Source of the DNA: Eutreptiella sp. 'Long Island Sound 2002'
Taxonomy: Eukaryota; Euglenozoa; Euglenophyceae; Eutreptiales; Eutreptiaceae
Reading direction: 5' to 3'
Assembly: GCA_964036045.1 (NCBI GenBank)
Contig: OZ038383.1
Span: 89,997,086-90,061,085 of the forward strand
DNA: 64,000 bases
Shown here: one piece after another, positions 2,894-50,374 of the stretch
Layout: each line of letters begins with the position of its first letter
Numbering within the stretch: the first letter of the stretch is position 1
Made by a program: the position numbers and the translations under genes
Notes under the pieces: model-generated
Seen by the model: the letters and a program-made list of their open reading frames with translations, nothing else
Told to the model about the DNA's origin: nothing
Databases searched by the model: none

Positions 2894-4968
2894 ACTATGA
2901 CTGCCCACAGGGACGCAAGTTGCTGTCACACTATGGGTATACACTGACCAATCCAGCTGACCAATGCCGCATGCTGGTAAGCCTCATGGCGCTGCAGACA
3001 ACATCGCGTTGTAATAAAATAGTGCTTGAAAAATTGCAGTCACAGCTGGCATCAGACCCACCAACGGTTCGGGCCAGGGGACACCGAAAACAGGAAATTT
3101 ATCGTTTGATGAGAGAGGTGCAGCATAGACGGCACATGGCAAGTTTGCGTACCCAGCAGGGGCATGTGCTGCGTGATAGGCAGGACATAGCGGCCCACGT
3201 AGCGGCATATTGGAGCTCAGGGATGCAGTCAGGTGATAAAAGTGTAGAAGACATTGAATCTTACCTTGTTTCCAAAGGACTGCATTATAGGTTAGCCAAG
3301 TATACGCCCCTGCTCTTTAAGGAACTTTCAGAAGACCTGGTTCATGCGGGTCTTGAACGATTGAAAAATGGGCCAGTGCTTGGTCTTGATGGTATCCCTG
3401 CCTGTTTGTACCAAAAATTCCCTGACATTTTTGTGCCCAGAATGCATGACACCATGCGAGCACTTTTGGTAGGGGCACCGTTGTCTGATGATTGGTCCGT
3501 GGCGCTGATTACTTCGAGTCCCAAAGTGGCGGGTACCCCAATGGTGGATCAATTGCTCCCCATTTCCATTCTGAATGTCCTTCTGAAATGGATCACCACT
3601 ACAATGCTGTTGCAAATAGAAGACCTGCTTCAGCAAGTTGTGCCGCAGGAACAAAAAGGCTGTTTGAGAGGTCAGCAGTTGACGGACCATTTATGGCATG
3701 CGGCGGGTGCGTGGCTTGATATGACGCGCGGTTTCGTGCTCACAATTGATTTTAGGAAAGCGTATGATAGTGTAACGTTTAATTACCTCGACGCGGTGTT
3801 GCGTGTTATGCAGTTACCCAGCTCCTATGTTTCACTTATACTCATGGTCATGTCATCCCCAAGATTGTTTGTGGTCAATGGTGCCGTCGTGCATAATGTA
3901 GTGCATCACCCTTCCTCGGGTATTCCACAAGGCGACCCCTTGAGCCCGGCCCTGTTTGTACTAGTGGTTTCGCAGGTCATTTTGGCACTGAAACGGTCGG
4001 TGCCAGATGTCATTGTCATAATGTATGTTGATGATTTACTCTTGTATTTTCCTGGAACCTGTGAGGCCTGCTTAGCCGTCCTTTGTGAAGTTATTTCAGT
4101 TGTGTTGGAATTTGGGCAGTATTCAGGATTGCACATGAAGGTGGGCAAAAGCAAAACCATGCTCAAATCACTGGACCCGGCTGTCTTTGCAGGGCTGGGG
4201 TTTAAGCTGGTAAAAATTTTCAGGTACTTGGGTGTAATGATAGGGCACTGCACAGGTGAAGAGGGTTTTGCGTTTTTGCTCTCCCGAGCGCTTCAACGGG
4301 CTCACCTAGTGGCTCAATTGCCCCTGACGATGCACGAGCGATGTGAACTTTTGCAGATATGGGTGCGTTCCATGTTTGAGCTTACAGCGAGGGTTTATGC
4401 GCCGCTAGCTTCCGTAATTCAGCAATTGCGTGACGTGTATTGTACAGCACTCAAGTTGGACAGTTGGGGGGTGGTCCTGCCGATTTTGGCCCATTCGTTC
4501 TCTAAAGGTGGATATCAACTAATTATGCTGCATGTGTATTTGTTATGGCAGCACGCACACTGTTTTGTGCATGACGCGCCCCAGCAGGTGGCACTTCCGC
4601 CGATCATGGTCACGGCTTTCCAATCCTGGTGCCAGCAGGTTGGTTTCCACCCGAATCCTGACGATTTTTTTTTGTTGCATGTAGGTATGGTGCAGTGGCG
4701 ATCCATGCCCAGTTTGGGCCTGCATGCCAAGTCTTTTTCAAAGGTTCGTAAAGGCTTGCCTGTAATCATGTCCCCCGGTTATGATGTGTCCTCCATGCCG
4801 CTCTGCCATAATGCTTTGCTTGCGGATGTGCACTCCAATACATATTACTCGGCGCGCCTTGCACAGGATGGCGTTTTGTTCGTGTCTCATGCCTTTACGC
4901 GTCAGCAACTCAACTCTACCGTGGTTGTGCCACCTGTGGCGTCTACAGTGTACTGCCGTGCATTTTAA
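2830..4968 (+). pseudogene. LINE-A reverse transcriptase domain
   Basis: A 712-codon open stretch encodes a non-LTR reverse transcriptase, which would copy the element RNA onto nicked target DNA. Motifs in order: the GLDGIP block near 3380, DFRKAYDSV (catalytic Asp; about 3746-3774), GIPQGDPLSP (about 3919-3950), and YVDD (4024-4035) with both catalytic Asp. The thumb motif FRYLGVMIG is near 4222. The first ATG is not the true start, because the endonuclease joins in another frame upstream. The frame ends at TAA 4966-4968 and the zinc-knuckle region continues in the same frame after it. The catalytic residues are intact, but the copy cannot make a full ORF2 without bypassing breaks. Confidence 0.88.
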
Positions 4969-14290: not shown

Positions 14291-16523
14291 ATGGAATTAG
14301 ACCCCATGGAACTCCAGTTCACGCCGACAAGAGATCCCTCTGAAGGTATCGAGGGCGCAGAGCCAACGGAGTTGTATCCTCTAGAGATATGCGCAGCCTT
14401 GGATGGCTGCCCATCACTTGGGCCACTGGACCCCTATCGGCTCGACCGCCCGTGCAGTGCGTTGTATAACGCGGCATTTAAGGAGGCCATGGGCGATATT
14501 CGCCAGTACCGCTTCCCCAACGAGGTGTCGTGGGTCGTGGCGGCGGTCACCGCTCATCTCGACGAGTGTGTGTACCTTCGGGCCCCGCCCGACATGACAC
14601 TCACCAAACCCACCGACCCTGGTTGGTTAGGGCTCATCTTCCAAGGACACGTCAAGCTCAATGCGGAGAGGTGGGACCACCGCATCATCGCGGTGGAATC
14701 CTTACTTCCGGAGTCGCACCCAGCAATCTTGGGTGGCGGACACTGAGGTCACCTTCTTGGCAATACCCGTGCCGGTGGCACAACGCATCACTGAAGAATC
14801 GGCCGCGTACGCCGCTGACACGTCTGACATGCTGCGCACCATGGTCCATGGCCAGCTGGAGTCTATCATCCAAGTGCAGTCACACGACCAAGCCATGGAA
14901 GACGGAGCACCTCAGTCCCCCATGTATGTGACCCGCCCCGCTGTAGCGGGGGCGGAGGAAGAAGAATTGAAGCAGGCGGAACCAGCGCTGGGGAGTTACC
15001 TCCTGCAACTTAGGCGGCTCCAGAGGGGCATGCGGTCGTACTTGACTTCCAGGCCGGAGCGCAAAGTCACGAATTGCCACCACCGCATTTTGAACTCCAC
15101 GGGTGAGGTATTCTTTGACACGCGACGCACGCAACTGGACCACAGGGTCGCAGAGGACATCCTCGCCCATTATGACGTCACAGTGGAATACGGCAGCGAC
15201 GGCATCCACACCGTATTCCACAACGCCACGCCAATGCATGCACAACGGTGCATCCTACACACCGAGGTCACCCAAAATCTGGATCCCTACTACGGGGAAC
15301 TCACCAATCGGACCGGAGTCCTCGTCCTCCCGGATGAACAAGGGACAAAAAAGGGATTCATGGAGGCACAAAACAGGCCCAACGCAACGCCTGTGGTGTG
15401 GGGCGGTACGGAGGACGACGCCATCCGGGAAATGGTGGATGTACTGGCCCAAGGGCAAAAAGCGCATGCGCGTAAGCGTCTACTCATGGTGTACGTGGCC
15501 AACAAAAACCGGGACTCGGCCATTGCCACACTGCGTCTAGAGCAAGTCGAAAGACCCTCGCTTCGTGCATCCAACAGATATCTGGCCGGGGTCACAAAGT
15601 GGACGGGCACGGTGAACGCAAAGTACGATGGGTGGACAGGTGATGAAACCTTTGCCCCCGGATTTTCTGAACCGCTCCCCCTCATGGGCGTCTTGTTGGA
15701 TAACTCGGCCGAGTGGCGACCTGTGGAGGCCGTTGAGAGTCGTGAGTTGGATGTGCAAAACATGGACCACGATGATTTGTACGGGAACATACAAGACGGC
15801 GGGAAGTTCGCCATTGAGGAGGACACGGATACGGTTGTCTTGGAGTTCCCGGAAGCCATGAAAGTCAACACGCTCCATCGCATGTTCAAGTTCCTCAACG
15901 AAACAGACATGGAGGTCCAAACCAGTATTGCCATGCTGCTACCCTCTAATAGCTTCCCGTTCATGGGGGCTATGGAGGCTCGCGCGTGGCGGTCTCAATC
16001 CACGGCATACGAGGTTCGCCTCCCAAGGCGACTCGTGGCCAAGGCCACGCGAGTGGTGGCCGAGGCAGCGGAGGCTAGATACAAACAAGATGACCAGCTA
16101 GTGGGCCCCTTCATCATCAACGAATCGGCACGCGAGCTCTGGATTGTACGTCAGCGCTTTCGGGTGGAAAAAGAGGACAAAATCTCCTCTTACGAGGATA
16201 TTATACGGGACTTCCGCCAGAATCACCAGTTGATTCAGGGCACACTCATGGAGCATGTTGTGGGGACGAAGCCCGTCGACAATTATCGGTTGATGGTGCA
16301 GTTCAAGACGACCCTAGACCGCTTGACACTCGCCTCTGTGTTGAAACAAATCAACCATTACGAAGCGCAAAACGTGCTCACCAACGACATGATGTCGGGA
16401 GGGGTGTCACGGAGTAAATGGGGCTACGCGGCAGTCAAGGCACGAGCCTTGCTCCCGAACCCCGACCGCTCGCACGCTACGGAGATCTTTTGGGGAGCAT
16501 CGCTGGGAGTCTCCGAGTATTAA
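14291..16523 (+). pseudogene. LINE-B ORF1, main part
   Basis: ATG 14,291 opens an acidic N-terminus in one frame. Near 14,725-14,745 coding passes to another frame (FLAIPVPV and onward), indicating a one-base indel. The following 600 codons are globular with no zinc knuckle, RRM or esterase signature that I recognise. ORF1 proteins of LINEs usually coat the RNA; that role is inferred from position only. The frame stops at TAA 16,521-16,523 but resumes at once in the same frame. Confidence 0.6.
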
Positions 16524-17144
16524 TTGCGAGTGACCGTCGCCAGTTTTGGTCGGTACTTGACGTTGGCCGAGGAGCCTAGCTTCTACATGGAACCCACTTA
16601 CATGCATTATGTGAGGGCCACCTACGAAAACCCTCAAAGTGCGGGTTTTGCGGCAGGGCAGTTCCGTAAGGTTAAAGCTGGGGTCCTCCAATGTACCACG
16701 GGCGACTCTACCCAGGATGCTCTCATCCGGGACCGCATCGATTTCATGTTGTTGGATGTGGTCCCGGACTCCTCTCAGGTCCGCCTTCCACATCGCCTCC
16801 AGTACGCTGCGAAGTTCGTGGGAGCCAAGGAGGCCATGGCAAAGCTGCATGATGAGCACCTCAAGACGAAACGTCTCCACGAACCCGCCATGGACACGCA
16901 AGAGAAAATGATGCAATGGGATACAAAGGACCCTCTCCTCCAGCCGAAGCGTGCCAAAACGGAAGCCCAGGACGCCCGTCTCCGCATGGACACGCGCCGA
17001 CCTACGGCCTCCACCGCCAGCGACCTTAAGATCAAGACCAGTGCCTCCAAGCCACAGCTGGCTGCCCCGGCACGTAAACCAACTGTAAAGCCCAAACCGC
17101 CCACGCCCGCACGGCGGGGTGTACCCAAACCAGCACGCAAGTGA
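16524..17144 (+). pseudogene. LINE-B ORF1, C-terminal basic part
   Basis: Same frame as the preceding ORF1 segment after TAA 16,521. The first about 110 codons are globular. The end is Lys/Arg/Pro-rich (KPTVKPKPPTPARRG and similar), suited to nucleic-acid binding. TGA 17,142-17,144 may be the genuine ORF1 terminator, because a hydrophobic leader and the 2A motif follow. Confidence 0.55.
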
Positions 17145-17225
17145 CCCCGGTCTGGGGGCACGCTGGGATTCTACCTGTGGGTCTTGTGCCTCCTCGTCTG
17201 CCTGGAGGGTTGTGTTAGCCACGTC

Positions 17226-18410
17226 ATGCGGCACTCACTACTCCTCGATATTCATGGGCTCGTCATGGTGGGGGCAGGACACGGGATTACATGGTACGTG
17301 GGACCGTCACGGGTGAGGCGCCGTTCGCCCCGACGCACATGGTGGGCCCATGGCATGAGATGGGAACACCGTGGGGCGCACATTTACCGGGTCTGGGACA
17401 GGGGGCGGCCTTTCAGTTGGCTTGTATATAAGACGTATCTACGGGGGCACCTGGGCCCCTACAAGCCGTGGGAAGCCCTTCTACTGTTGCTTGGGGGAGA
17501 CATCGAGCTCAACCCCGGGCCTTCAAGTGGTCAATGGGCTGCCGTGTATACCGCACTGAACAAGGGAGTGGTCAAGTCTGCTACCGGTTGCACGCAACCA
17601 AGTGGCGATGGCCTCCGGTGGGCGTCCTTCAATATTGGGGGCCCCACGGTTGATTGGGACCGATGGGTCACCATCGTACAGCTCTTGTCTGATATGCGCC
17701 TCGACATTGTCGGCTTACAAGAAGTTAAGCCTACCTTCCCCAACATAGAGGCGGCAACAACATTAACCTTTCCCGAGTGGCAGATCTACTATCACCCACA
17801 CCCGTCCGGGACCGTCAATGGGGTGGCGTTCCTGGTCCGCAACACGATGGACCACTTCGTGCTCAAGGACGGCAATCAACGTGCCTCGCTTTTTGCAGAC
17901 CCAGACGGGACCTTTCTCGGACTTACTTTGCAGCTCCCCAACAAGCCACGGCTACGGGTCCTGAACTACTATGGACTCCAAACTGCAGCCACCAAGAAGA
18001 GGCAAGATGCCTTTGTTGAGACACACCAATACGATGTACTCATGGGCGACTTCAACGACTCTATTTGGACCAACACCCCAAGTCGGTTTTGGCACGATGA
18101 CCTTCTGAGCCGCCGTCTATACGACCCGCTGCACGAACTATGCTCCGATGGGTCTGTACAGGCGGGACACACCAGAGGGTGCCACCGCCTGGATGCCATC
18201 CTGGTCTCTTCGCGGTGCTGGGGGAATGTTAGCCCCATGACATACCATACTGTCGCCATGCCCACCTCCGACCACCGGCTCGTCCTAATGACTACAGGTC
18301 TCACCTCCACGGACTGTGAGTCCTTTATCAAAGCCACGCACCCTGCCAAGAAGTGGAATGTGCGGCAAGAGCGAGCCGCCGTGCAGGAGACACAACGCAT
18401 ACTCGCCTAG
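17226..18410 (+). pseudogene. LINE-B ORF2, part 1: 2A-like leader and APE endonuclease
   Basis: ATG 17,226 is the first in-frame ATG after the ORF1 stop. The leader contains hydrophobic and Arg-rich segments and ends in EALLLLLGGDIELNPGP (residues about 83-99). Endonuclease motifs in order: FNIGG (residue 135), LQEVKP (17,716), GDFND (18,044), HRLDAIL (18,184) and SDHRLV (18,268). These are the Asn, Glu, Asp/Asn, Asp and His positions of APE-type nucleases that nick the target. TAG 18,408-18,410 separates it from the RT in the same frame. LINE ORF2 normally carries EN and RT in one protein, so this stop is unexpected. Confidence 0.85.
17493..17522 (+). other. 2A-like ribosome-skipping motif (GGDIELNPGP)
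   Basis: Matches the 2A core D-[VI]-E-x-N-P-G-P exactly, preceded by five Leu, as in many functional 2A sequences. In known 2As the last Gly-Pro bond is not formed and translation continues. Here separation would release a leader of about 98 residues from the endonuclease. Confidence 0.8.
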
Positions 18411-18422
18411 CAAGACACCCCA

Positions 18423-21044
18423 ATGGACGCAGTATCACGCGCTGATGCGGTCCTCAAAGCGGTGGCGCAGGCCGTCATTGGACAGGGGAAGCGCACCAAG
18501 CGGACCCGTCTCAAAACTAACACACAACAGTGGCACAAACACTTCCAAGTGGTCAAGAAGCGCATCGCGCAGGAACTGCGCGAAGTGGCCAACAAGCGCC
18601 TCTATACCATGCGTCATGCTGCCCTCCGCAAGGATGGGGTATTCTTCCGCTTGACCAAAAATTGGACCCGCGGACCATTGAAGCCCACGCAAAAGCAACC
18701 CAGTCCGGACCTGGCGCGCGCTTTGCTGGCCAACTTCAGTGGCAACCCCCCCTATGACATGGCGGCCATTGAAGCACTCATCCCACAACTCATCCCACAG
18801 GGGCACATGACTGACGACCCACCAAGCTTCGATGAGTTCAAAAGGGCATGTATGGGCAAGCGCAAGAAAGCCGTGGGCCCTGATGGGGTTCCGCACCGCT
18901 TGCTGGGCATGCTGCCAGACGATACACTGCACACATTGTATGAGGGGGTGCTAGAAGTATGGAGACCAGGAGACATCCCGCAGCATTGGCTGCGGTCTGA
19001 GGTGGTGTTGATGTACAAGAAAGGGGATCCTGACCGCCCCGAGAATTATCGACCCATTGCCGTGACCAACAGTATATATCGTGTTATCATGAAGTTGTAC
19101 AGGCCCCGCCTGCAGCGCCTTGTGGACCGGGTTGCTAGCCCCGAGCAGTATGGGTCAAGGCCTTTGCACACCGCAACTGAGCAAGCTGCAAACTTAGTCA
19201 ACTCCCTCCACGAGCACGAAATGGAGGGCCGGGAGCCTTTTGTGGTTGTGTTGGATGTTGCCAAAGCCTTCCCGTCCACAATCCATGAAGCCATTTTCTC
19301 CATCCTGAACCATGCCGGGCTCCCGCCGAACTATGTGAACACCTTCCGCACGATCTATGCACACACTGACACATACACGGACATACAAGGAGAACAGATA
19401 TACTTCAAGCCCACGCGGGGCGTCAAAGAAGGATGCCCCTGCTCCCCGCTCTTGTTCGCTATTGTATATGAGTTGTTGATCAAGCGTTTGATCGCCAAGT
19501 ACCCGGACACATTCGTTTATGTTGACGATATTGCCATCATTGTCAAAGATCATTCTGAATTGGAACGACTCCTCACCGACCTCTCCGCTTGGGGGTCCCA
19601 GATTGGGATTCAGTTCAATCCTAACAAGACAGAAGTGTATCACTTCCACAGACCGCAGTCCTCGGGCGCTACCTCAGGGGGTGCCCAGCAGGCAAAGCAC
19701 ATCTGGTGGGGACAACATCGCCTCGACTTCAAGGATCCCATGTTCACCTACTTGGGCCACACCATCGCCGGTGTAGGGTATAGGGGCAAGGCTAGGGATG
19801 CGCTCTTCGCCGCGCTGCAAGCTCAGGTAGCCGCATACACCATCCTCCCGTTGACAAGCTTTGAGCGGGCACAAATGGTCAATTCCGTACTCATCCCCAG
19901 GTGGGTGTATAAGAGTCTCTTTATGTGGGATGTGTGTTGGGGCAACCGCATGGAGACCGCCTTCGAAGAGTTTGTCCTTCAGGCTCCCCGCGTGGAAAAG
20001 TACTTGCAGTACCGCCTCTACACGGACGTCACCGAAGGGGGACTGGGCCTCCACAGTGCGTCCTGGGCCGGTTTATGCGCCCTTATTCAGCTAGTCCAAC
20101 GGGCCTTGCGAGTTCCACACAGGCCTATGACGAGGCGCACCAACTCGGGTCATCTCCCACACATGGTGGAGAAGTACCGCAAAATCCTGCTGTCCTTTGG
20201 TATGGAAATGGGGCTCCTCCCACGCACCGGCCAATCAATAGGTCGAAAGGCACCCAAACGGGCCCACGATGACCTCGAGTCACTCTTCGATGATGAGGAC
20301 TCCGACGATTGCAGGTTTGAGTCGCTTGTACCCCACCAGTACCTCCAATCCCTGCGTCCCAAGAGCGGCACTAGTCCCGTGCAACCCAACGTTGAGCAGT
20401 CAGGCCGTGCCTGGCACCAACAGGGGCAACCCACGGGGTCAACGTGGTACAGTGACGGCAGCCTGTTGGAAGGGCGTGCTGGCACAGGGGTGGTCAACGG
20501 ACCTATGCGCATCCAAGCGAGAGTACCGGGCCCGCAGACGATTTATAGGGCAGAAATGTACGGCATATGGATCGCGGCGTGCCTAGCCCAACCGGGGGAC
20601 TCCATCGTGCTTGACAACCGGGCTGCGGCTCGATGCGTCTCCAAGCCACCCAGCCCACAATCGTCCGACTATGATTTGCACGACGCAGCGTACCAGCTTA
20701 TCTCCACCAAGGCACTCCAAGTACGTTGGGCACGTGGGCATCGGGACCCTAAAAAGGCGCATAGTTTGCAAGATTATCAGGACAGGATTGGCAACGAATT
20801 AGCCGACCTCGCAGCCCGAGCGGGCAGTACCATGCACCCTTGCCGTGGTCTGGGCAGCACATCACCCGCGGATATACTCTTGAACGGCCATGTAATGCCG
20901 TCCCCTGCCCGTAAGTGGATCATCAAATCACGCCCCCAGAAGCTGGTACACGAGGCGCATTGGACGTCATGGCTGCCTTTGCGCGCGGTCAACCGAGATA
21001 AGTGGGGTCCATGGCTGTGGGGGACACTGCGATTGCCGGGTTAG
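18423..21044 (+). pseudogene. LINE-B ORF2, part 2: reverse transcriptase and RNase H
   Basis: 873 codons after TAG 18,408, same frame. RT motifs: AVGPDGVPHRL, YRPIAVTNSIYR, LDVAKAF (residue 277, catalytic Asp), GVKEGCPCSPLLFAIV, and YVDD (366-369). RNase H: YSDGS (676-680), RAEMYG, VLDNRAA, RWARGH and GNELADLAARAG, so the D-E-D-D set and the His region are present. A Ser/Asp-rich linker (about 615-640) joins the two. ATG 18,423 is simply the first Met after the stop. TAG 21,042-21,044 cuts off the zinc knuckle that starts a few codons later. Confidence 0.9.
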
Positions 21045-22355
21045 GGGGCACCCTGGGAAACCGGGCCGGTGCTGTGCCCACGGTGTGGACAGCGCCATGG
21101 CCTTGCAGTGCAGGAGTGCCTCTTGTCATGCCCCTCCGAATCCCGGTTTTGGGACATTTGGACCGACGCATGGGAGACATGGAAACCAGAGGCAACCAAG
21201 TGGCGACGAACTGCGTCCGCAGACGAACTGCGCATGTGCACCCGCTTGCAGTTCCTACACTCCCTTCAACGATCCTTCCTTCCAGTCCAGGCGCACTGGA
21301 GGGTGGTAGTTGCCACATGGCACTTCCACGTATTCCAGCGATTGCAGGCGTGGGTCGTTGACAAGCTGCAGCACGCCCCAACTTTCGTCAGCAACAAGCG
21401 GCCCACGCACATTGTCCCACCTGTTGCTGGGGCCCTGCCGCAGGTAGCTAAACCTACGGCCCGCAACATTTGGAACCACGTGAGAGGCGTACTGTCGATC
21501 CCGCCGCCATCAGAGCCACGTTTCACAGATACTGCGCCCACGGTGGAGGAACTTCGGTGGCAATTGACACAAGCGGTCACCACTGCCGAGCGCACGTGGG
21601 TCTTGGAGGCCATGGCCCGGCACCACCATGTAGCACCGCCGCGCAAACGGCCCAGAGAACCGTCGCCGCCACCGGCACAGGCTCCGGCCTCACCGCCGCG
21701 CGAGCCTCGTGAAATTCATGCCGGACCCTTCCTGGAACAGGCCAGGCGTCTCATGCTACACGCCCAAATGCAGGCCGCACGACTCTGCCTGGAAGAGGTG
21801 GCGCAGGCACTCGCCCAGCAAGCCGTCACACAAAAGTCCCTCTTCTTGGCACACCACCACGAGCACTTGTGCCGGCAAGCGTACTTCCTCTACAAGGAAC
21901 ATACGACGCGGTGGTATGTAGAAGCGCAACAGGCGGTCTACCACTTGTCCTGGATGGCGGATTCTCGCCGACTACGCTTCCGCCAGTGGCGAACACCTGT
22001 CCTCCCCGAGGCGCGGTCCACGGCGTCGCGCAAGCTCGCCGTGGCATCCTCGTGTTGGGAGCAGGCACATGTTTCGCTGTCCACCGGCATCAAAGCGGAA
22101 GAAGCATCCGAACGGCGGCATATGTCCCAAGTGCACGCGGTGACCCTTACGGCCTTACGGCGGACGACTTTGTCGGACCCCCGATGGGACATCCGGGGGG
22201 CCACCGCACAGCGCATGAAGCGCTTGCGGGACGAGAACCCACCCGAGACACACAAGAAACGGAGGACAGAGGCGCCGGAGGTTCCTAGTGATCTCCAGGA
22301 TATGGAAATCCCGTTGGAGGACATGGGCGATGTCATAGTCTTGACTGGATTGTAA
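21045..22355 (+). pseudogene. LINE-B ORF2, part 3: zinc knuckle and coiled C-terminus
   Basis: Continues the RT frame after TAG 21,042. LCPRCGQRH and CLLSCPSESRFW (about 21,072-21,150) form the CxxC...C zinc knuckle usual at LINE ORF2 C-termini. Then come a Trp-rich segment, a basic stretch (RKRPREP), a long Ala/Gln/Glu-rich probable helical region and a second basic cluster (KKRRTE). The end is acidic, and TAA 22,353-22,355 is the likely true terminator. Confidence 0.7.
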
Positions 22356-27537: not shown

Positions 27538-27685
27538 AAGAGTAGGTTACCCCGTTGTATACATGTAGTTTGTGACTGGTATTTCACTTAGCCCGCTTTA
27601 CAAGGAGGTTGGGCATCGCCACTCCACACAGATGAGGAGCCCCAGGCGTCCCCGATCGTCAGTCTGTTCTCTTCCACCCTCTCCA

Positions 27686-27688
27686 TTA
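27686..27688. repeat. TTA target duplication, left
   Basis: TTA precedes the left inverted repeat and also follows the right one (33,992-33,994). A 3-bp TWA target is typical of PIF/Harbinger and 3 bp of several other superfamilies. Confidence 0.7.
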
Positions 27689-27717
27689 GGCGGCCGAAAC
27701 AGGTACGCTTTTGCACC
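27689..27717 (+). repeat. left terminal inverted repeat of the 6.3-kb transposon
   Basis: Starts GGCGGCCGAAACAGGTACGC. Against the reverse complement of 33,963-33,991 the differences are at positions 11, 12 and 26. Confidence 0.88.
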
Positions 27718-27953
27718 GCTCTTTTTTTAAAAAAAAGACCGAGAAATGATGTGGGTTATTTCAGTGAATTACCGTAATTTTTTGCACCTGATTTTTCTTG
27801 GGTTATTTTTCAGTAAAAAAAGGTACTTTTTTCGTGACCTTGCAACAAATTGGGCTCCTTTGTACTGCTGCGTATGATGGTATCGCAATATGGAAGGGAA
27901 ACCCACTGTGCGTCGCGGCACGTGTTGGTTATTACGCCTTTTTTCTGCAACAG

Positions 27954-28136
27954 ATTGCGAGGCCTCGCAATACAATGATTCGATTTCATTTGTTTTACTA
28001 GAGTCGAACTCATGCAGAGTTCGCATAAGGGTAATTACGACAAATAACACTCTTCTTCGAATGCGAGGCCTCGCATTCCGTTTCGGAATGTTCCCAAAAG
28101 GTGTAGTTTCGCGAATCGAAATGCGAGGCCTCGCAA
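27954..28136. repeat. left subterminal palindromes (3)
   Basis: Perfect TGCGAGGCCTCGCA cores at 27,956-27,969, 28,062-28,075 and 28,122-28,135. The first extends to an 18-bp and the second to a 20-bp perfect palindrome. They lie 270-450 bp inside the left terminus and upstream of gene A, so they could serve as transposase or regulatory sites. Confidence 0.9.
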
Positions 28137-28539
28137 TAATGGAACAGGAAACAATAAAATGGACAGATCCACCAACTACACAGCATGTGCATTCCCTTTA
28201 ATGCGGCGCTACTGTATGGGCGCCCATACAGCTCCCGCCGGCATCTCTACTTTTCATACTGTGGTCACCGTTGGCTTCACCGCCCAACAGCGATGGTCGC
28301 GGTTCGCAACTGGGTACCGCAAGTGTGATAAACAAGAGAAATGTGGGACCAGTTGACCGTTACCAGTAAACGATAATGCGCACGCGCGGCGCAGTTGCGT
28401 GCAAAGATCAATATGCGCGTGTCGCGTGTGCAGCGCTGTGCTGGCAAGAAATTTTATTTACCTGTAGCGTTAAAGGAGCCTGTTTTTTGTGGAATTGTAT
28501 AATAAAATGCACATTTTTGATTTTTTGAGATGATTGTTC

Positions 28540-30529
28540 ATGCCACGTAACGTTGCGCATCGAGCGAAGAGAGAGCTGGAACGGTTTGTCAGGCGATTGC
28601 GAGCTTTCTGTGCAACGGAACATGGGTATACCACTGCTGAATCACTATGGGCTGCCGTTGAAAAGAACAAGAGAGGAGCTGTTTTCTTTCTTTTTTGATT
28701 TTTGCGCTTGTTACGAGTGAACCGGAAAACACGGCACTCACTACTGAGGTTGAAAGGCAGACCAGAGAGCCGAGCGGCTAATCACTTCAAGGAGGAGTTC
28801 TTCAACTTGTGCAAAATCTTGCGCTTGCGCTGCACACCCCAGCACCAGGACGAGGACGCCCCGGGTTTTGCCTCCATCGGTCGGCAGAACAGGCGCCGGT
28901 TGCGCAGGACAGGACTGCTGCGGGTGCGAGAGGAAACTATGAAGGAACGGTCTGCGGGAAAGATGCTTGAGACATGGCGATGGATAGAGAACCGGCAGGT
29001 TTGCGTGTGCATCGACAATTCTTACATTAAGCAGTATGGAACGCATCCAATGATCCAGGATCAGTCACAAAATTGCACGGCCCTTTGCGTCGTTGAGATT
29101 CCGTGCAGGTTGCCGTATTTTGGAGGACACCCAAACATAGATTTGCTCATCGGCAGCATCGGCAGTGTGGCTGCAGCGCTTGTGAGAATGGAACAGAGCT
29201 TTCATGGGATCGTGACAGATCTGGGCCTGCTTGCGGACAGACCTGCAGCACTACCGAGCATCAGGGCGCCCCTTGACATCGTGCGAGATCCAGTACCGAA
29301 TCCTGGTTGGAAACCGCTGCTGCTGAGTACGCATCAGGTATCCTCGTACATGGGCCTGGTCGAGGTGTTGGACTACATTGCATCCCTGTCGAACCACACG
29401 CACGCCATTGTACCCATCCTCGTTGATGAGAACATACACAAAAGATGCCCCAAGTTGCTCTACTGCGACCGAACGCAACGGTGGAACTGGCACGAAAAAC
29501 TGAAGAAGACTCCTATCTTGTACGGCTGTTGGCATCCCTATAAATACCTTGTGACAAACGTGTGGCGCCGCTTTCATTCGCTGTTTGTGTACTTCCGCTT
29601 TGGCCCATTAGGAGTGGGGAAAACAGTAGGGTCGTTCCCGAAGCTTAGAGTCATGGAGAGAACTATTGCCGGCATCCTCAAAGGAGCGCCGCATTTCTTG
29701 CGGCAGTTGCGGCGGAAAGCGTGCAGGTTACAGGCTGGTGCCGATCACGGTGGGTCGGCGATGGATCGACTGAAGAGTGAAGTATGTAAAGCAATGGTGA
29801 ACCTTGTGCAGGACTGGTTACCGCTTGTCCTCTGCTGTGGATTTCTCGTGAGACAATGCAACTGGTCTGGACGGCACCCAGGATCCGCCATCGATGCCCA
29901 AAATGTTTTGCGACTGGTGTTCGTGCTTTTGACAGAACTCGGCAGGGCTGCAGCTGATCATGTTGTGTATGTGAGGACCATCGGTGTTGCGTTGTTGCAT
30001 TGCAAGGCGTTCAGCAGCGGCCTGCCAGGGTTGTGCTATGGTGAGGAGTTTGGCGAAGTCATGCTCAGTCGACTTGGGTCCATGAAGGATCGACACACTT
30101 GGGCTATCACACCGAGCGACGTGGAAGATTTGTTTGTCCAGATCTGCCCTGCGAGAATTAACAGACGCCTGCTGGTTAGTGGTTTGTCCGCCGACATTGA
30201 AACCGAGATCCGACAGCGCTTGCATTCGTATGTTACTGACGACCGCCTGAGAATTCGGTACTGTCCTTGGCAGTCGGGTACCTCGACCATGGAGAGGCAC
30301 TGGGAGACGGAACCAGATCTTTAGTCCGACCCTTACAGCGAGCCGGACGTGGACACATACAGGACTGTGTTGACCGATGTTTTGCGTACATTTCTGCGGC
30401 AGCCCCGGAAATTTCTCACCTGCCGTAATACGGTTGATGGACAACAAGGTTCCTCTGCGGTCTGATGCGCAGCGCACGAACATTCTGGACACAATCTGGG
30501 CCTTTACACATGAATGGAATGGTTTTTAG
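28540..30529 (+). pseudogene. gene A: transposase-like protein of unknown superfamily
   Basis: ATG 28,540 opens a basic, helical N-terminus (AKRELERFVRRLRAF). TGA 28,696-28,698 interrupts it, and the same frame then runs 540 codons (28,702-30,324). Acidic residues in conserved-looking contexts: CVCIDNSYIKQYG, GIVTDLGLL, PILVDENIHKRCPKLLYCDR and TPSDVEDLF. GCWHPYKYLVTNVWRRFHSL is the most distinctive block. These could hold a DDE/D triad, but I cannot assign it. TAG 30,322 is followed by coding-like sequence, then a one-base frameshift near 30,400 and DNKVPLRSDAQRTNIL to TAG 30,527-30,529. There is no zinc finger. The role as transposase is inferred from size, position and element structure. 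Confidence 0.55.
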
Positions 30530-30597
30530 GTTGATTCCCATCTCCGTTGTTCTTGTTGCCTGCACGCCGGTGCTTTTGCTCACTACTGCGTGTTCGG

Positions 30598-30732
30598 AAT
30601 GCGAGCCCTCGTAATCGTCTTTTCAATGAGTGTGTTTTTGACTATATGTTGTTACCCTAATGCGAGGCCTCGCAATACGAAGTAGGTAATTGCCGACAAA
30701 TACCTATAACGTCGATTGCAAGCCCTCGCAAT
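30598..30732. repeat. inter-genic palindromes (1 perfect, 2 degenerate)
   Basis: Degenerate copy 30,598-30,615, perfect core 30,661-30,674, degenerate copy 30,715-30,732. They are spaced about 57-60 bp apart, between the end of gene A and the start of gene B, where a terminator or promoter would lie. Confidence 0.85.
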
Positions 30733-31480
30733 CAAAGGATAAAGATGTACAGTTTTCTCCCTTTTTACAGGGCTATTTCAACATGGCAGAGAGTTTGATG
30801 CCAAGAAAAGAGGCCAGAGCATCACCAGACACCTCACAAGTACCATCCACGCAGGAAACGGTGCCATAGGAGTTCTTGAGGTTCTACAAGAAGCCTTTGC
30901 AGGTGGAGGTCGCCGTCGGGAGCCTTCTGATCGACAAGAAGAAGAAGTACGGCCAGATCCGGAAGTATCAACAGAAGCGAGTGGACGAGGTTAAGAGAAG
31001 TCTTATGGCCAACCCACCTGAGGAGCCCGTGACCGTGACTGCATGGCAATCACCATGTACGTAACCTGGTCGCAGCGGTGATGTTTCATGTGCATACTCC
31101 CCAAAACCGTTTTTGGGTCTCCAACCGACGATTGGATCGTCATTGCAAAGCAGCACTGCGTCTGTGCGCTGAAAGAACTCCGAAACGAACGTCTTGAGAA
31201 GGGCCTCGACCTACCGCAGTGGATGCAAGTAGTGAAGGTCAACCCGCTGAAAACGGAGACCTGGGCTACCCGAGTATGAATCGCCGCGCGGAAGCAGGCC
31301 ATCGACCTCGACATCTCCGCCGTGCCACCGTCGGAAGCAGCTGACAACTTCCTTATGCATTTGCGAGATTCGCCGGCTGGGCCTGACGAGACTGCCACAG
31401 AACACATTCACCGAACCATCCCGAAAGCCGCGAGCGGAAGTGCTTGGATTCCACCACAGGTTTCTGATGATGAACTCCAA

Positions 31481-31547
31481 GTATGTTCCATTGTCGAGTG
31501 CGAGGCCTCGCAATCCTAATATGGCTACTCATCCTCCTCCTGTCCAG
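31481..31547 (+). other. intron in gene B (67 nt) carrying a palindrome
   Basis: GTATGT at the 5' end, CTGTCCAG at the 3' end, phase 0 on both sides. The perfect palindrome core is at 31,499-31,512. Confidence 0.8.
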
Positions 31548-31842
31548 ACTCATTCAGTCAAGGCGTTTGGACCGTTCTTCACTTGGGTGTACCATACGAA
31601 GGACGCAGCGGTGACGTCGCTGGATAATTTCGAGAAGATGGACACGCCGGTGACAATGAACCAACCGAAGTTCTTGCAGGGTATGTACGAGCCATCGCTC
31701 CTACAACGGGTCGCGGCCGACATGTCGAGACCAAAAACGAACATCAAGGAAATCCAGGACCGGGCCTCTGCTTACCAGAAGCAGCAGTGGATCAATTGGC
31801 ATTGGGGAGCCGCGCCGGACAGCGTCATCCATCCGACCCGAA

Positions 31843-31912
31843 GTATGTTCCCCTGACAAGCAAGTATGCAAACACGCAAACAAGGTAAACGCAACCTTTC
31901 ACACGTTTACAG
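31843..31912 (+). other. intron in gene B (70 nt)
   Basis: GTATGT to TTTACAG. Splicing joins phase 1 ends (A plus AG) and restores the open frame. No palindrome inside. Confidence 0.8.
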
Positions 31913-32553
31913 AGGCCAGTCCGGCAGAGAAGGTACCGTTGCATGACTGGGATGTCCTTTGGTTTCGGATCCCTTTGGGGGCTTGGCAATGGAAAGCCGA
32001 GGCTCCGTCGCCGAAATGGGAAACGCTCAGCGAGGCGCGGTTCTGGACGGCGATGGGAAACACTCATCCAAAGCATGGGTCATCAATGGATCTTGGTCGC
32101 CTGCGTGCACGACTGGCATCGCCCTTGACGGAAGTCAAGTCCACGGAGTCCGGAAAAGTGGACGTGGTGAACATTGAGGTCACTAGAAAGGTGGTCAAAA
32201 TGCTGTGCGCCGCCTACAAAGATCCGCAAGATCCCCTGAAGTTTTTGGAGGCTCTGGACACCGACATGATCATTATGAATGCAAATCTGGCGGACGGTGC
32301 TGATCCTGTGAGTCCCGTTGTGATGGCCAAGTTGATTGACAACCCTGAAACTGTGCTTGTGATCTACGGCGAGGTGGAGCGTGTTTGGGACGCCCTGCAA
32401 ACAGTTCTTGAGACGCCTGGAATTGCGGAGAACGATTACTGGTATGAAAAAGTGCAAGTGTGTTACTGGCTACCTGGCACATGCAAGATAGGAAAAGGCG
32501 GAATTCAAGTAAAAGCACTAGTTCTGCTGGCCGGTGTGAAGATCAGGAAAAAG

Positions 32554-32621
32554 GTATGTAAAACGCTTTTGGATTGGAAGGCCTCGCAATGCCTTTGCCA
32601 TCTGGCTACTCCTCACTACAG
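32554..32621 (+). other. intron in gene B (68 nt) carrying a degenerate palindrome
   Basis: GTATGT to CTCACTACAG, phase 0. ATTGGAAGGCCTCGCAAT at 32,573-32,590 differs from the perfect palindrome at two positions. Confidence 0.8.
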
Positions 32622-33390
32622 ATCCCACCATACATCGGTTTGGGTCACCGCGAACGTGATGTCCCAGGGTTCACGCCCCTTGTGCTTTATACGTGGATGG
32701 CAACGCTGATGCGGACCAAAGACCGCACGGAGAACGTCATGATCTTCGATCGCGATGTGCACATGCCGGCGAAAGTGGCAGCGTTGGATGATCCTCCGCA
32801 AATTTGTTCTCTGCAATTGACCAAACAGAAGCGGTCGGATTGGGCACGGAGCTACCATCACGAGGTGACGCAGCGTGTGCAGGCGGGAATGGACCACACC
32901 AGGTTGGCGCAGTGCGAGCTCTGGATCCAGTTCGGCATGCCAATGCGGGTTGAGGACGAGCACGTGGGGTATGCGCGTCTCGAGGTGTCCACGGCAGAGG
33001 AACCAAGTCAGCATGCCCATGAAGAAGTTGCAGACGAAGACTTGGAGGATTTTGGGGACAATGACGATAGACCGCCGTTGACAGGATCTGATCGGCGATC
33101 TCCTCGAAAGTCAACGCAGGTTGGGGCGTTCCAGGCTGGCGATGCAGATGAGGACGAGCCGAGGGCGAGTCAGGCGCCGAAGCCCCAAAAGCCAAAGACC
33201 CAGGCGGCAGCTGAGCCGAAGCAGACGACACTGACGCAGCCCCAGGGAGTGAAGAGCACGCTGAGCCTTCCGGATCCCGGAACAGCAGTGGGCTCGACGT
33301 CGAGGAGTAAGATGTTGGCAGCGGGATTGAAGAAGAAGAAGAAGCCCTAAAGGGCGTCACAGTCCTATTTTTCGTGATATGTCGTCTCGC

Positions 33391-33656
33391 AATGCGAGGC
33401 CTCGCATTCCATATTAGGCGATTCGCCATTTCAGCTCTGTTTTCAGAAGCGTCATCTTGAGACGACGATTATACTGACCCTAAGGCAGCAGACAGTATTG
33501 CGAGGCCTCGCATTCCGAAAGCCTCACGTGTTGACGCAGGGAATGTATTGATATTCTGCATTGTGTTTCTGCTTGTTTCTGAATGATGTGAAGCTGTGTG
33601 TAATTGCAGTGAATTACGTTGTTTCATGCCTCGTATTGCGAGGCCTCGCAATACGA
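33391..33656. repeat. right subterminal palindromes (3)
   Basis: Perfect cores at 33,393-33,406, 33,499-33,512 and 33,637-33,650. The last extends to a 26-bp perfect palindrome (33,631-33,656). The first two are 106 bp apart, the same spacing as the first two on the left. Confidence 0.9.
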
Positions 33657-33962
33657 ATAGGAAAATGGTACCCTTTTACAACATTTTGGAAACCACCGGC
33701 GTAAAAAGTGCATTTTCAAGCCCGGAGAAAAAAGCATGGAGAGGAGAACAACAAAAAGCAAGGTTTTCTAGTTCAAAAACCCCCAAAATGTGGTGCATTT
33801 TACAGAAAAGTGGGTAAAATAGCAAAAATTGTGAGACCTTTTTTGGAGGAAAATTATGCATTTTTGTGGGTGATTGGGCCAAAAAACTCAGTAGTCAAAT
33901 TTTGTGGTAGAAAAAAGTAGGAAAATCGGGCAAATTACCTATACCAAATTTGCAAGCACCCT

Positions 33963-33991
33963 GGTACAAAAGCGTACCTACTTCGGCCGCC
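33963..33991 (-). repeat. right terminal inverted repeat of the 6.3-kb transposon
   Basis: Ends CTACTTCGGCCGCC, followed by the TTA duplication (33,992-33,994). Confidence 0.88.
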
Positions 33992-33994
33992 TTA

Positions 33995-34997
33995 GTCTCC
34001 GGCTAGAACATTGAAGGTGCGGACACAATTGACGGTTGGGGACGGAGGCAAGTGTGTAGGTGTGGTCACAACAACTTAGGGTGGTGGCCTTGGACCAAAT
34101 GCGCCAAGCTACAAGCACCCAACTACACCACACTTTCAACAGACAGCCTAAACCTCCGAGCCGGCATTGTTGCTTTGCAATCGAGACATATTAGCCACAA
34201 CTGAGCCAAAAAAAGTTTTCTCCTGTGTTACCAGGTGGTTGGTGGTACGACCTCACGGTCGCATGCAAAATTTGTCTCGTTGGAAAAATTGCCACCCATA
34301 CCACCCTCGGGGACCGACGCGAGGGGCCTCCAATATACTGTTGGGGCCACCCCCCCGATACCCAGGGGAGGGGGGGGTGACTCCACAGGTCCTAGGACGC
34401 CAACTACCCCCCCCCCCCCCGGGGGGGGCCTCCAGCAAGCAGTTAGTTGCAAAGGGCCTCCGGCCAACAGTTAGTTGCCACAGGCACCCAAAGGAGTCCA
34501 TGGGCGCCAAAGGCGCCCGACGCTCCATGGGCATCAAAGCCGCCCAAAGGAAAATTTTGTCCACTTTGCACCCCAATACTATTCTTAAACCCAACCTTGA
34601 CCCTAACACCCACCCCAAGCCTGAGCCTAGTCCTAACTCTACCCCTCCTATCCCTAAGCCTAGCTGTGGCCCGAACCCTATCCGGGATGGAATATTGGGA
34701 CCGAGCTCTTGGGGGAAGGAACATTGTCTAGGAGATTTCAGCGACAAATGAGGTACGCACTAGAAATTGGATGAGATATAGCCCTCTAGGCGGGTGAAAA
34801 GGGATGTACTCGTGGGTACTATGTGTTTCATTCCATCTATACGGCTCGTACTATAGAGTACACCCAGTTATGCAGTACCGGGGGCGCATCACATGGCTGC
34901 TATGTTGTGTGTTGCAATTAGTAACTCAGCTAGCTTTTTACCATTTTTGTTGTGTCCTTTTACGGCTTGCAGCAATACTACTACATTGCAATACATG
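33995..34997. other. no gene; homopolymers and degenerate CCCTAA-like tract
   Basis: A long C-run followed by a G-run lies near 34,408-34,428, flanked by repeated phrases GGGCCTCC...CAACAGTTAGTTGC. At 34,586-34,690 many CCCTAA, CCTAAC and CCCAAG words occur with loose spacing, suggesting a decayed simple repeat. Open frames here follow from composition. Confidence 0.5.
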
Positions 34998-43529: not shown

Positions 43530-44141
43530 CCCGTGAAACGTCTCATGGCGTTGGACAACCGGTTCTGGAGTTGGGGACTGCGAGGACGGGCAGCAACACT
43601 CTGGAGAGTGGAACGATTATAGGTGAAGGCAAAGGATTTACCGAAGGCCAACTTCTGGACCCAAGCAGCACACCAGGGGTTGAGCAAGCGTGTGATGGCA
43701 AACATGATTGCACAAGGTACGGTGAGCACGGTTGCCGCGCATGATGGAGTGGTCGAGGTGGTGGTGAACAACAAGATGCGGACAACGCGATATTGCGAGG
43801 ACAAGATGGGAACGCTAAGTGCTGCCCACTTGGTATAAATTGAGCTCGGGCCGGAGGAACCGATGGACACGATCCCTGTGGTGCTAGAAGGTAAGTCGGT
43901 GGCTCATGGGACCCCCTGCAATGTGTATGGAGTGACCGCAAGGGAGCACGCAACAACCCTACAGAAGAGGCCGCGTGTATTTGCCACGTGGCAACAGACC
44001 GAGATTGCGGTGTACAGTACAAGGGAAACGGATATGGTTTCGAAGGCCAGCCGGACTAAGTTCACATGTAGTGTTCTATACAGTGTGTTGCTGCAACCGA
44101 AGAAGTTCATCCTGCATCCTCCCCTCCATACATGGTTTTGA
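43530..44141 (+). pseudogene. coding-like segment of array unit 1, second half
   Basis: One frame runs from about 43,540 (LMALDNRFWSWGLRGRAATL) through VKAKDLPKANFWTQAAHQGL and MDTIPVVLEGKSVAHGTPCN to TGA 44,139-44,141. It is interrupted by TAG 43,620-43,622 and TAA 43,836-43,838; both stops are conserved in all units. About 200 codons without a frameshift suggests real ancestry. Unknown family, no transmembrane or zinc motif. Confidence 0.4.
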
Positions 44142-47100
44142 GATCATCAACTAGAAGACGGCACCAGTGGCGCACGGGGGCGCAGGGTTTGATGAAGCAG
44201 ACCCGCCGAAGCCCTACACACAAACACATGCCGTGGTGATGAAACCAGACACTCCCACGGCTGTTGCGAAGATGGTAGGAGGCCTCCACTAGCGAGCCCA
44301 CCGGAGTCATGAGGAGACCACCCTCAGCGAGCTCATTGGAAGCGTGGCAGAACTGTGCCAGCAAACAGGAGGGAAGAGCCAGAATAGGGTGTCACTTGAT
44401 GGAGACCAAATGTGGAACATCCTTCAAGATCTGGGTTCGGAGTACAAGGATTATGAGACACCAAAAAAAAACGGTATGTTCTACTACCAGCAATAGAAAG
44501 TTTCATGGTGCCCTGTGCGTTGTATGGACACCGTGGCGATGTGACCCCGGATGTTGAACCAAAAAGGTGCATTAACATTCTTGTTGTCGGAGCAACACGT
44601 GGCAGTGACGCAGTGGCTGGGAGTCGCAAACGTTGTTGGGATCATGTATGGCTATCCCAATCTGCTCGATTGACGAGTCAAGGGTCCTAGCTCGAGCACT
44701 GTTCAAAAAGTTCGCGGGGTGGATGCGGTACTACTACTGCAAGGAGGTCATGGAGTGGTGGACGGATCTATTGAGGAAAAGTCACGGTGAGCACAATGAA
44801 ACGTAAATTGGAGAAGTTGCGCCAGCTATAGCGCATCTACACCCATGTATACCACTCAGACCAGCCAATTCGTGACTCGCAACGTATGTATATAGAACAT
44901 GCATGGGCAATCCGCTGTCTTGTACACCGCTTTTAATGCTAACAGTAGAACTTAGTTCCCAGTGATCTTTCTGACCATTTCGATGCGACAGGCCTCGTGC
45001 ATACAAATGCAGGTGCCTTTTACTGCCGGCGGTAGAACACTGTGTCCAATGGGAACCCTGTTGTCCTATTTTCTTCGGCACTCAGAGCCCCGTGAAACGT
45101 CTCATGGCGTTGGACAACCGGTTCTGGAGTTGGGGACTGCGAGGACGGGCAGCAACACTCTGGAGAGTGGAACGATTATAGGTGAAGGCAAAGGATTTAC
45201 CGAAGGCCAACTTCTGGACCCAAGCAGCACACCAGGGGTTGAGCAAGCGTGTGATGGCAAACATGATTGCACAAGGTACGGTGAGCACGGTTGCCGCGCA
45301 TGATGGAGTGGTCGAGGTGGTGGTGAACAACAAGATGCGGACAACGCGATATTGCAAGGACAAGATGGGAACGCTAAGTGCTGCCCACTTGGTATAAATT
45401 GAGCTTGGGCTGGAGGAACCGATGGACACGATCCCTGTGGTGCTAGAAGGTAAGTCGGTGGCTCATGGGACCCCCTGCAATGTGTATGGAGTGACCGCAA
45501 GGGAGCACGCAACAACCCTTCAGAAGAGGCCGCGTGTATTTGCCACGTGGCAACAGACCGAGATTGCGGTGTACGGTACAAGGGAAACGGATATGGTTTC
45601 GAAGGCCAACCGGACTAAGTTCACATGTAGTGTTCTATACAGTGTGTTGCTGCAACCGAAGAAGTCCATCCTGCATCCTCCCCTCCATACATGGTTTTGA
45701 GATCATCAACTAGAAGACGGCACCAGTGGCGCACGGGGGCGCAGGGTTTGATGAAGCAGACCCGCCGAAGCCCTACACACAAACACATGCCGTGGTGATG
45801 AAACCAGACACTCCCACGGCTTTTGCGAAGATGGTAGGAGGCCTCCACTAGCGAGCCCACCGGAGTCATGAGGAGACCACCCTCAGCGAGCTCATTGGAA
45901 GCGTGGCAGAGCTGTCCCAGCAAACAGGAGGGAAGAGCCAGAATAGGGTGTCACTTGATGGAGACCAAATGTGGAACATCCTTCAAGATCTGGGTTCGGA
46001 GTACAAGGATTATGAGACACCAAAAAAAAACGGTATGTTCTACTACCAGCAATAGAAAGTTTCATGGTGCCCTGTGCGTTGTATGGACACCGTGGCGATG
46101 TGACCCCGGATGTTGAACCAAAAAGGTGCATTAACATTCTTGCTGTCGGAGCAACACGTGGCAGTGACGCGGTGGCTGGGAGTCGCAAACGTTGTTGGGA
46201 TCATGTATGGCTATCCCAATCTGCTCGATTGACGAGTCAAGGGTCCTAGCTCGAGCACTGTTCAAAGAGTTCGCGGGGGGCATGCAGTACTACTACTGCA
46301 AGGAGGTCATGGAGTGGTGGACGGATCTATTGAAGAAAAGGTCACGGTGAGCACAATGAAACGTAAATTGGAGAAGTTGCGCCAGCTATAGCGCATCTAC
46401 ACCCATGTATACCACCCAGACCAGCCAATTCGTGACTCGCAACGTATGTATATAGAACATGCATGGGCAATGCGCTGTCTTGTACACCGCTTTTAATGCT
46501 AACAGTAGAACTTAGTTCCGAGTGATCTTTCTGACCATTTCGATGCGACAGGCCTCGTGCATACAAATGCAGGTGCCTTTTACTGCCGGCGGTAGAACAC
46601 TGTGTCCAATTGGAACCCTGTTGTCCTATTTTCTTCGGCACTCAGAGCCCCGTGAAACGTCTCATGGCGTTGGACAACCGGTTCTGGAGTTGGGGACTGC
46701 GAGGACGGGCAGCAACACTCTGGAGAGTGGAACGATTATAGGTGAAGGCAAAGGATTTACCGAAGGCCAACTTCTGGACCCAAGCAGCACACCAGGGGTT
46801 GAGCAAGCGTGTGATGGCAAACATGATTGCACAAGGTACGGTGAGCACGGTTGCCGCACATGATGGAGTGGTCGAGGTGGTGGTGAACAACAAGATGCGG
46901 ACAACGCGATATTGCAAGGACAAGATGGGAACGCTAAGTGCTGCCCACTTGGTATAAATTGCGCTTGGGCTGGAGGAACCGATGGACACGATCCCTGTGG
47001 TGCTAGAAGGTAAGTCGGTGGCTCATGGGACCCCCTGCAATGTGTATGGAGTGACCGCAAGGGAGCACGCAACAACCCTTCAGAAGAGGCCGCGTGTATT

Positions 47101-50100: not shown

Positions 50101-50374
50101 GACACGATCCCTGTGGTGCTAGGAGGTAAGTCGGTGGCTCATGGGACCCCCTGCAATGTGTATGGAGTGACCGCAAGGGAGCACGCAACAACCCTTCATA
50201 AGAGGCCGCGTGTATTTGCCACGTGGCAACAGACCGAGATTGCGGTGTACAGTACAAGGGAAACAGATATGGTTTCGAAGGCCAGCCGGACTAAGTTCAC
50301 ATGTAGTGTTCTATACAGTGTGTTGCTGCAACCGAAGAAGTTCATCCTGCATCCTCCCCTCCATACATGGTTTT

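Follow-up and report, generated by a model that had tools for sequence, protein, structure and literature searches.

In PIF/Harbinger transposons the target duplication is 3 bp long (TWA/TTA), and membership is recognized by a DDE_Tnp_4-type transposase together with a Myb-like partner. Transib and RAG-like elements duplicate 5 bp of target. The terminal inverted repeats (TIRs) of Transib end in CAC and Ginger elements end in TGT, while ProtoRAG carries two genes in an orientation that differs from that of the element described here. Repeated sites inside an element are also familiar: in other superfamilies (hAT, CACTA), either the transposase or a protein of the element recognizes the subterminal repeats, and bacterial ParB reads the repeated palindromes of parS. 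Accessory genes that may act on the element's own DNA have been described in algae, where the 21.5-kb Sola1-1_Ec32 carries ParB and DNA methyltransferase genes on the strand opposite its Sola-1 transposase (PMC12477816).

We analyzed a 64,000-nucleotide window of the genome of Eutreptiella sp. 'Long Island Sound 2002' (contig OZ038383.1, positions 89,997,086 to 90,061,085). The window contains an element that shares with TIR-bearing DDE cut-and-paste transposons its TIRs, a target duplication of fixed length, insert-free sites, multiple copies and acidic residues that are invariant in its putative transposase. It differs from them in having no Pfam transposase match, in its ends (CTTAG[G/A]CG) and in a second gene accompanied by palindrome arrays, which recur in four families.

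Element boundaries and target site

The limits of the element were set by comparing 21 copies (20 fetched plus the one in the window), which provided 14 5' ends and 19 3' ends. A sequence-only reading had placed the element at 27689..33991 and had taken the TTA on both outer sides as its target duplication. In other copies, the repeat reads CTTAGGCGGCCG..., and the TTA of the window copy is the outer part of this repeat. CTTA precedes the 5' end in 12/14 cases (the exceptions are the window copy, with ATTA, and L015, with TTTA), and TAAG, TAAA or TGAG follows the 3' end in 18/19, with TTA at this position in the window copy only. We therefore assign CTTA/TAAG to the TIR as its outer part. Immediately beyond this, 10 of the 12 two-ended copies carry an exact 5-bp duplication (the exceptions are L013 and L016; the 9/21 copies without one end were left out of this count). 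This places the element at 27685..33995 on the forward strand (6311 bp), extending it by 4 bp on either side relative to the earlier proposal.

The window copy sits inserted within another high-copy repeat and is flanked by the duplication TCTCC (27680..27684 and 33996..34000), as established from flank comparison and uninterrupted sites. Its 5' TIR (33 bp, 27685..27717, forward strand) reads ATTAGGCGG..., the copy's own 5' end being ATTAGGCG, and in most other copies the 5' TIR reads CTTAGGCGG.... The 3' TIR (33 bp, 33963..33995, reverse strand) matches it at 28/33 positions, so the proposed inverted repeats were borne out, and copies elsewhere in the genome do end at these TIRs. When the two flanks were joined with a single TCTCC, they matched 40 scored places (302 candidates), each match spanning 197–201 bases, which indicates that those places lack an insert. 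Four of the 40 were aligned, and TCTCC was single in all four, in place of the empty TTA sites that had been anticipated. Thus, the element itself was correctly recognized, and its ends and target site had been misread. The best explanation is that the window holds a dead (decayed) DNA transposon of the cut-and-paste type, with two genes.

Two genes under protein-level constraint

Gene A, the putative transposase, is broken in the window copy. It starts at 28540 on the forward strand, and 28540..30417 matches residues 1–625 of the 657-amino-acid homolog encoded by the unbroken copy L012, with one TGA and one TAG within the match; the remainder extends to about 30525. The 540-codon gene reported from the sequence corresponds to an open frame of 541 codons (28699–30321), which is part of this longer gene. 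Gene B lies on the same strand and has five inferred exons encoding about 765 amino acids, with limits drawn from splice signals and other copies: 30783..31056, 31125..31480, 31548..31842, 31913..32553 and 32622..33350, the last with an acidic/basic low-complexity tail and the stop codon. The proposal of a spliced second gene agrees with the GT..AG introns present here. Gene B is also broken in the window copy, with premature stops in exons 1 and 2 and an intron-1 acceptor that reads AA instead of AG.

Across the 12 two-ended copies, mean pairwise differences at codon positions 1, 2 and 3 were.056,.046 and.083 for gene A and.044,.048 and.077 for gene B, with.083 in noncoding DNA. Both genes evolved under protein-level constraint.

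It is highly probable that gene A encodes the transposase, and its predicted fold is probably RNase-H-like DDE. Positions that are invariant across six gene A proteins include W156, D158, N159, D295, W330, H331, K334, R437, C439, W441 and E501, so that D158, D295 and E501 are invariant as DDE catalytic acids might be. By motif, the candidate catalytic residues are D158 (WxDN), D295 (PLlvDmkiH) and a later glutamate, either E372 or E501/E502/E505; P0004 and P0012 have D in place of E372, and P0006 has A. Two AlphaFold models built from shallow alignments had mean pLDDT of 31.5 and 37.3, too poor for fold comparison or a check of the RNase-H fold.

The sequence-only reading had found no known superfamily signature in gene A, and neither Pfam nor PDB searches gave a meaningful match. 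With hmmscan (12 A1 and 6 A5 members), there was no RAG1, integrase or transposase-family match to gene A, as seen through HMMER filters that drop weak matches. Pfam scans of both genes at E ≤ 10 gave single chance-level rows only (Polyoma_agno, 0.076; Dermcidin, 0.27; Lactamase_B_3, 0.072), a further scan at E ≤ 1 gave none, and the rows of PDB sequence searches (E = 0.059 or weaker) were taken as chance. Protein searches, in which a candidate was scored only if it had exact words in common with the query (two of them with a ceiling of about 8000 candidates) and which may miss distant relatives, identified a metagenomic relative of gene A, P0016 (31% identity over 500 positions), and at least one relative of gene B among the matches listed. 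Gene B matched phage records once, at chance level (E = 6). A viral or bacterial origin was rejected, as no relative was found in viral_contigs or genome_contigs at the sensitivity of pattern scans.

Related families in the same genome

Within the same 2.28-Gb genome, P0016 had 68 scored matches (7770 candidates) at 33–37% identity, and 55 of the 68 were stop-free within the match. Four families were read: the window family, F1, F2 (without its 3' end) and F3. The 5' ends begin CTTAG[G/A]CG in all four (the window copy itself deviates), and 5-bp duplications were found in the three families with both ends reached, including TTGTG in one copy of F1, and TATTG and TATGA in two copies of F3. The end motif is imperfect in some copies: on the reverse strand, F1 has CTTAGTCG at its 3' end, and L032 has an altered 3' end.

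All four families carry gene A and have a gene B homolog downstream, its splicing deduced by reading the DNA, as well as family-specific dispersed palindromes. Using tblastn against single loci with composition correction off, gene B of F3 matched that of F1 (E = 7e-29) and F2 (E = 9e-13), and gene B of the window family matched that of F1 (E = 2e-7), F3 (E = 1e-4) and F2 (E = 0.002).

A conserved palindrome array

The strongest feature of the element, absent from the sequence-only reading, is a conserved array of 11 palindromes with the 14-bp core TGCGAGGCCTCGCA. Three lie between the 5' TIR and gene A (27956..28135, at 27956, 28062 and 28122), three between the two genes (30600..30730, at 30600, 30661 and 30717), one within intron 2 of gene B (31499..31512), one within its intron 4 (32575..32588) and three between gene B and the 3' TIR (33393..33650, at 33393, 33499 and 33637). 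In the window family, the mean pairwise difference of the palindromes is.042, half the noncoding rate (.083), and 0/10,000 random sets of noncoding 14-mers were as low, as were 0/10,000 in a GC-rich control. The array is under constraint in this family. Allowing up to 2 mismatches, there are 11 sites in the window family, 14 in F3, 20 in F1 and 13 in F2, and the four family-specific palindromes share the frame CGA-N4-TCG. That each examined family has its own set suggests a built-in self-recognition system.

On our best reading, a protein of the element would bind the palindromes; gene B is the favored source of this protein, at about even odds. Gene B is a putative accessory DNA-binding protein, with the dispersed palindromes as its most likely target. 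Alternatively, the palindromes could serve gene A or a host protein as sites of binding or regulation, with gene B acting otherwise, for example in chromatin or methylation control. The subterminal repeats of hAT and CACTA offer a precedent, and the palindromes do adjoin both element ends; however, they also lie between the genes and, in two families, within inferred gene B introns, a placement not usually expected of the end sites of a transposase. We consider this alternative quite possible, if short of probable.

Gene B compared with ParB and methyltransferase accessory proteins

Like the accessory proteins of Sola1-1_Ec32 (PMC12477816), gene B is borne by a transposon and may bind the element's own DNA. 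It differs from them in lying on the same strand as gene A, in its five inferred exons and in having no detectable ParB or methyltransferase domain. Could gene B nevertheless be of this kind, binding and methylating element DNA? Three families have the segment GGQH, where the window family reads AKQH, and this is a lead in that direction. At E ≤ 10, no Pfam ParB or methyltransferase match was found in any gene B sequence scanned. When gene B was aligned by hhalign with three bacterial ParB sequences (contigs of this assembly), the probability was 0.2%, 7/100 column-shuffled controls scored as high or higher, and the reversed control scored 7.44 versus 6.81; the aligned stretch does not include the GGQH segment. 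A genome-wide PF02195 search, read exon by exon with the candidate region split by intron 1, gave 9 matches, of which 0 were at element loci. The earlier suggestion of a "possibly ParB-like" partner is thus a resemblance of motifs, and ParB homology is unsupported; the likeness to bacterial ParB/parS is one of working, in that the gene B protein may recognize palindromes present as repeats, with homology undetectable by hhalign. A methyltransferase-like C-terminus was likewise read from motifs, and Pfam gives it no support. Overall, we consider a gene B of the ParB/methyltransferase kind unlikely.

Relation to named superfamilies

The 5-bp duplication and the presence of two genes would also fit a divergent member of a known group with this duplication length, either Transib/RAG-like or Ginger, and the term "5-bp TSD" occurs in papers on Ginger and ProtoRAG. 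Against this, the 5' ends are CTTAG[G/A]CG rather than the CAC or TGT of these groups, and the hmmscan searches described above, with their filtering of weak matches, returned neither RAG1 nor an integrase. We therefore judge such membership improbable.

PIF/Harbinger or another 3-bp TTA affiliation, which the sequence-only reading had favored because TTA flanks the 29-bp repeat on both sides in the window copy, is rejected with near certainty: TTA follows 1/19 3' repeats, the duplication is 5 bp (10/12 two-ended copies, with 40 insert-free matches), and neither a DDE_Tnp_4-type transposase nor a Myb-like partner was found at E ≤ 10 in the members scanned.

The two-gene architecture was proposed as new, and Pfam scans detected no named superfamily. 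We are strongly inclined to regard the element as a transposon of a so far unnamed superfamily.

Discussion

A working scheme can be proposed for this element, and together with the transposon and superfamily assignments we consider it likely as a whole. Gene A would make its cuts at the CTTAG ends, and insertion would follow with a 5-bp stagger. The gene B protein would recognize the dispersed palindromes through the frame CGA-N4-TCG and might thereby mark the DNA of its element, or bridge it, so as to direct gene A to the element ends; alternatively, gene B may regulate the element. More tentatively, gene B could represent a new palindrome-reading family, in which every family pairs a gene B of its own with a matching CGA-N4-TCG array that extends even into the gene B introns. 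Such a system, comparable in its working to bacterial parS arrays, would provide self-recognition on eukaryotic transposon DNA, coating or bridging the element and thereby restricting mobilization or marking to its own family.

A superfamily with its own type of transposase, a recurring partner gene and family-specific palindromes would add a branch to the classification of eukaryotic transposons. As four families carry four related yet distinct sites, the matching of protein to site is directly testable, making this genome a natural experiment on how elements recognize their own DNA.

Ends, copies and target site of the element

The window carries a decayed copy of a two-gene DNA transposon and lies on contig C6 of a 2.28-Gb genome. 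The sequence-only reading had placed this element at 27689–33991 with 29-bp terminal inverted repeats (TIRs) and a TTA duplication; the element is real, its true limits are 27685–33995 (6311 bp) and its TIR is longer, matching at 28/33 positions in the window copy. A genome search with the element yielded at least 38 matching rows (26 of 2024 candidates scored, a lower bound), at least ten of them full-length: the window copy and nine others at 90–93% identity. For the comparison of ends, 20 copies were fetched with their flanks. Outside GGCGGCCG, CTTA was present at 12/14 5′ ends and TAAG, TAAA or TGAG at 18/19 3′ ends; among these 19, only the window copy had TTAG outside the 3′ repeat. As these bases recur in most copies, the repeat is longer, beginning CTTAGGCGGCCGAAACAGGTACGCTTTTG, and the outer bases of the window copy have changed. 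Directly outside the longer repeat lies a duplication of 5 bp, exact in 10 of the 12 two-ended copies (TCTCC in the window, and TGGAC, TGTCT, CATTT, TTGTT, CTCTT, AAAAC, TCATT, TAACA and TCAAT) and lacking in L013 and L016.

When the window flanks were joined with a single TCTCC, at least 40 scored places matched at 84–87% identity (302 candidates). Each spans 197–201 bases and is therefore free of the insert, and the four of the 40 that were aligned all contain one TCTCC. The proposed check of collecting copies and examining their ends and empty sites was thus borne out, with copies ending at the repeats, insert-free sites found and a 5-bp duplication in place of TTA: the element was mobilized by its TIRs with duplication of 5 bp. 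The sequence hosting it is another high-copy repeat (flanks 27580–27684 and 34001–34096).

Window GC is 53%. On the forward strand, 14631–22352 holds five open frames in a row, all in one reading frame and each parted from the next by a single stop codon, with Exo_endo_phos at 17145–18407 and RVT_1 plus a weak RNase_H at 18411–21041; the stretch resembles a non-LTR retrotransposon interrupted by in-frame stop codons. Also on the forward strand, 2788–4965 holds another reverse-transcriptase frame (RVT_1, E 2.6e-24). On the reverse strand, 43546–50290 contains five 170-codon open frames whose ~1559-base spacing suggests tandemly arrayed units of ~1.56 kb; units 1 and 2 align gap-free at 83% identity. 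This array escapes Tandem Repeats Finder when run with periods of ≤500.

Constraint on both genes

Gene A, the putative transposase gene, starts at 28540. The window copy has one TGA and one TAG within its match to an unbroken homologue, and in copy L012 the frame is unbroken (657 aa). Gene B starts downstream at 30783, with five exons inferred. As read from the copy alignment, introns 1–4 have donor GT in 12, 12, 12 and 11 of 12 copies and acceptor AG in 9, 12, 12 and 12. Copy L011 encodes 765 aa with no internal stop; the window gene B has two internal stops and has lost its intron-1 acceptor. Differences at codon positions 1/2/3 were.056/.046/.083 for gene A and.044/.048/.077 for gene B, with position 3 of both genes equal or close to noncoding DNA (.083). 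Both genes were therefore under protein-level constraint.

Related families and protein identity

Protein searches of public data found close relatives (66–93% identity) and one distant relative of gene A, P0016, on a 2260-base metagenome contig (31% identity over 500 positions). P0016 matches at least 68 scored places in the same genome at 33–37% identity (7770 candidates), and 55 of the 68 rows, counted by reading, have no stop within the match. Three families were read among these matches: F1 (L029–L031, L042), F2 (L034, L035, L047) and F3 (L032, L033). Their 5′ ends all start CTTAG[G/A]CG; duplications are TATTG and TATGA in F3 and TTGTG in F1 (one copy, the sole one read to both ends). 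Gene B homologues lie downstream in all three; the similarity between ours and F2 is slight (E 0.002), but F3 and F2 match at E 9e-13. Together with ours, these families would make up one superfamily.

Neither gene matched Pfam at E≤10 beyond three isolated rows at chance level (Polyoma_agno 0.076, Dermcidin 0.27, Lactamase_B_3 0.072), and PDB sequence searches gave rows only at E 0.059 or weaker. Positions invariant in six gene A proteins include W156, D158, N159, D295, W330, H331, K334, R437, C439, W441 and E501; E372, E502 and E505 are invariant in a five-protein comparison. D158 and D295 fit as candidates for the first and second acids of a DDE triad. In another comparison, E372, a candidate for the third, gives way to D in two rows and to A in one.

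In gene B, GQxR, QH and AG positions are common to the four families, the QH segment being GGQH in three and AKQH in ours. The suggestion of a possibly ParB-like partner was not upheld: the QH segment is ParB-like to the eye only, and profile-profile comparison (hhalign) with three ParB sequences failed, controls scoring as high. PMC12477816 reports that an Ectocarpus Sola-1 transposon encodes an accessory protein combining ParB-like and DNA-methyltransferase parts, with counterparts in green and red algae; it cites Iyer 2011 and Petroll 2025. Typical bacterial ParB genes (L036–L041) occur in our assembly on high-numbered contigs (C1696, C1801, C1228, C1262, C953, C2055), perhaps symbiont or contaminant sequence. 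No prior description of such an element was recognised among the titles and abstract openings listed by searches of the open literature.

Family-specific palindromes

Each of the four families has its own palindrome: TGCGAGGCCTCGCA in ours (11 sites, 9 exact, in copy L012), GCCGAAATTTCGGC in F3 (14 sites, 13 exact), ATCGAAATTTCGAT in F1 (20 sites, 15 exact) and TCCGAAATTTCGGA in F2 (13 sites, of which 4 are exact, within the initial 6.7 kb; palindromes continue to 8.6 kb, short of the 3′ end). Perfect 12-bp palindromes number 12, 15, 18 and 10, respectively, against means of 1.5–1.8 and maxima of 5–8 in 200 shuffles of two-base blocks per family. At one mismatch no core occurs in another family, save two F3-type cores in F2; the palindromes are family-specific, with CGA-N4-TCG common to all four. 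One F3 site lies inside gene A, and none does in the other families. Neighbouring palindromes in F3 (L033) are spaced at ~70 bp, at element offsets 208, 279, 349, 420 and 489; 2884, 2955 and 3023; and 6013 and 6084.

All eleven window sites of TGCGAGGCCTCGCA at ≤2 mismatches fall within the element: three clusters flank or separate the genes, the remaining sites occupy gene B introns 2 and 4, and exons contain none; in F3, too, two palindromes lie within inferred gene B introns. The 12-bp core at ≤1 mismatch has eight window matches, all in the element (shuffle mean 0.15). Across 12 copies the palindrome sites differ by.042, random noncoding sets by.082 on average, and 0/10,000 such sets were as low (likewise 0/10,000 for a GC-rich control). 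The palindromes of our family, the sole family measured, are under constraint. Their being read by gene A or a host factor is less likely than their being read by gene B; in the mechanism we propose, gene A would cut and join DNA and gene B would read the palindromes.
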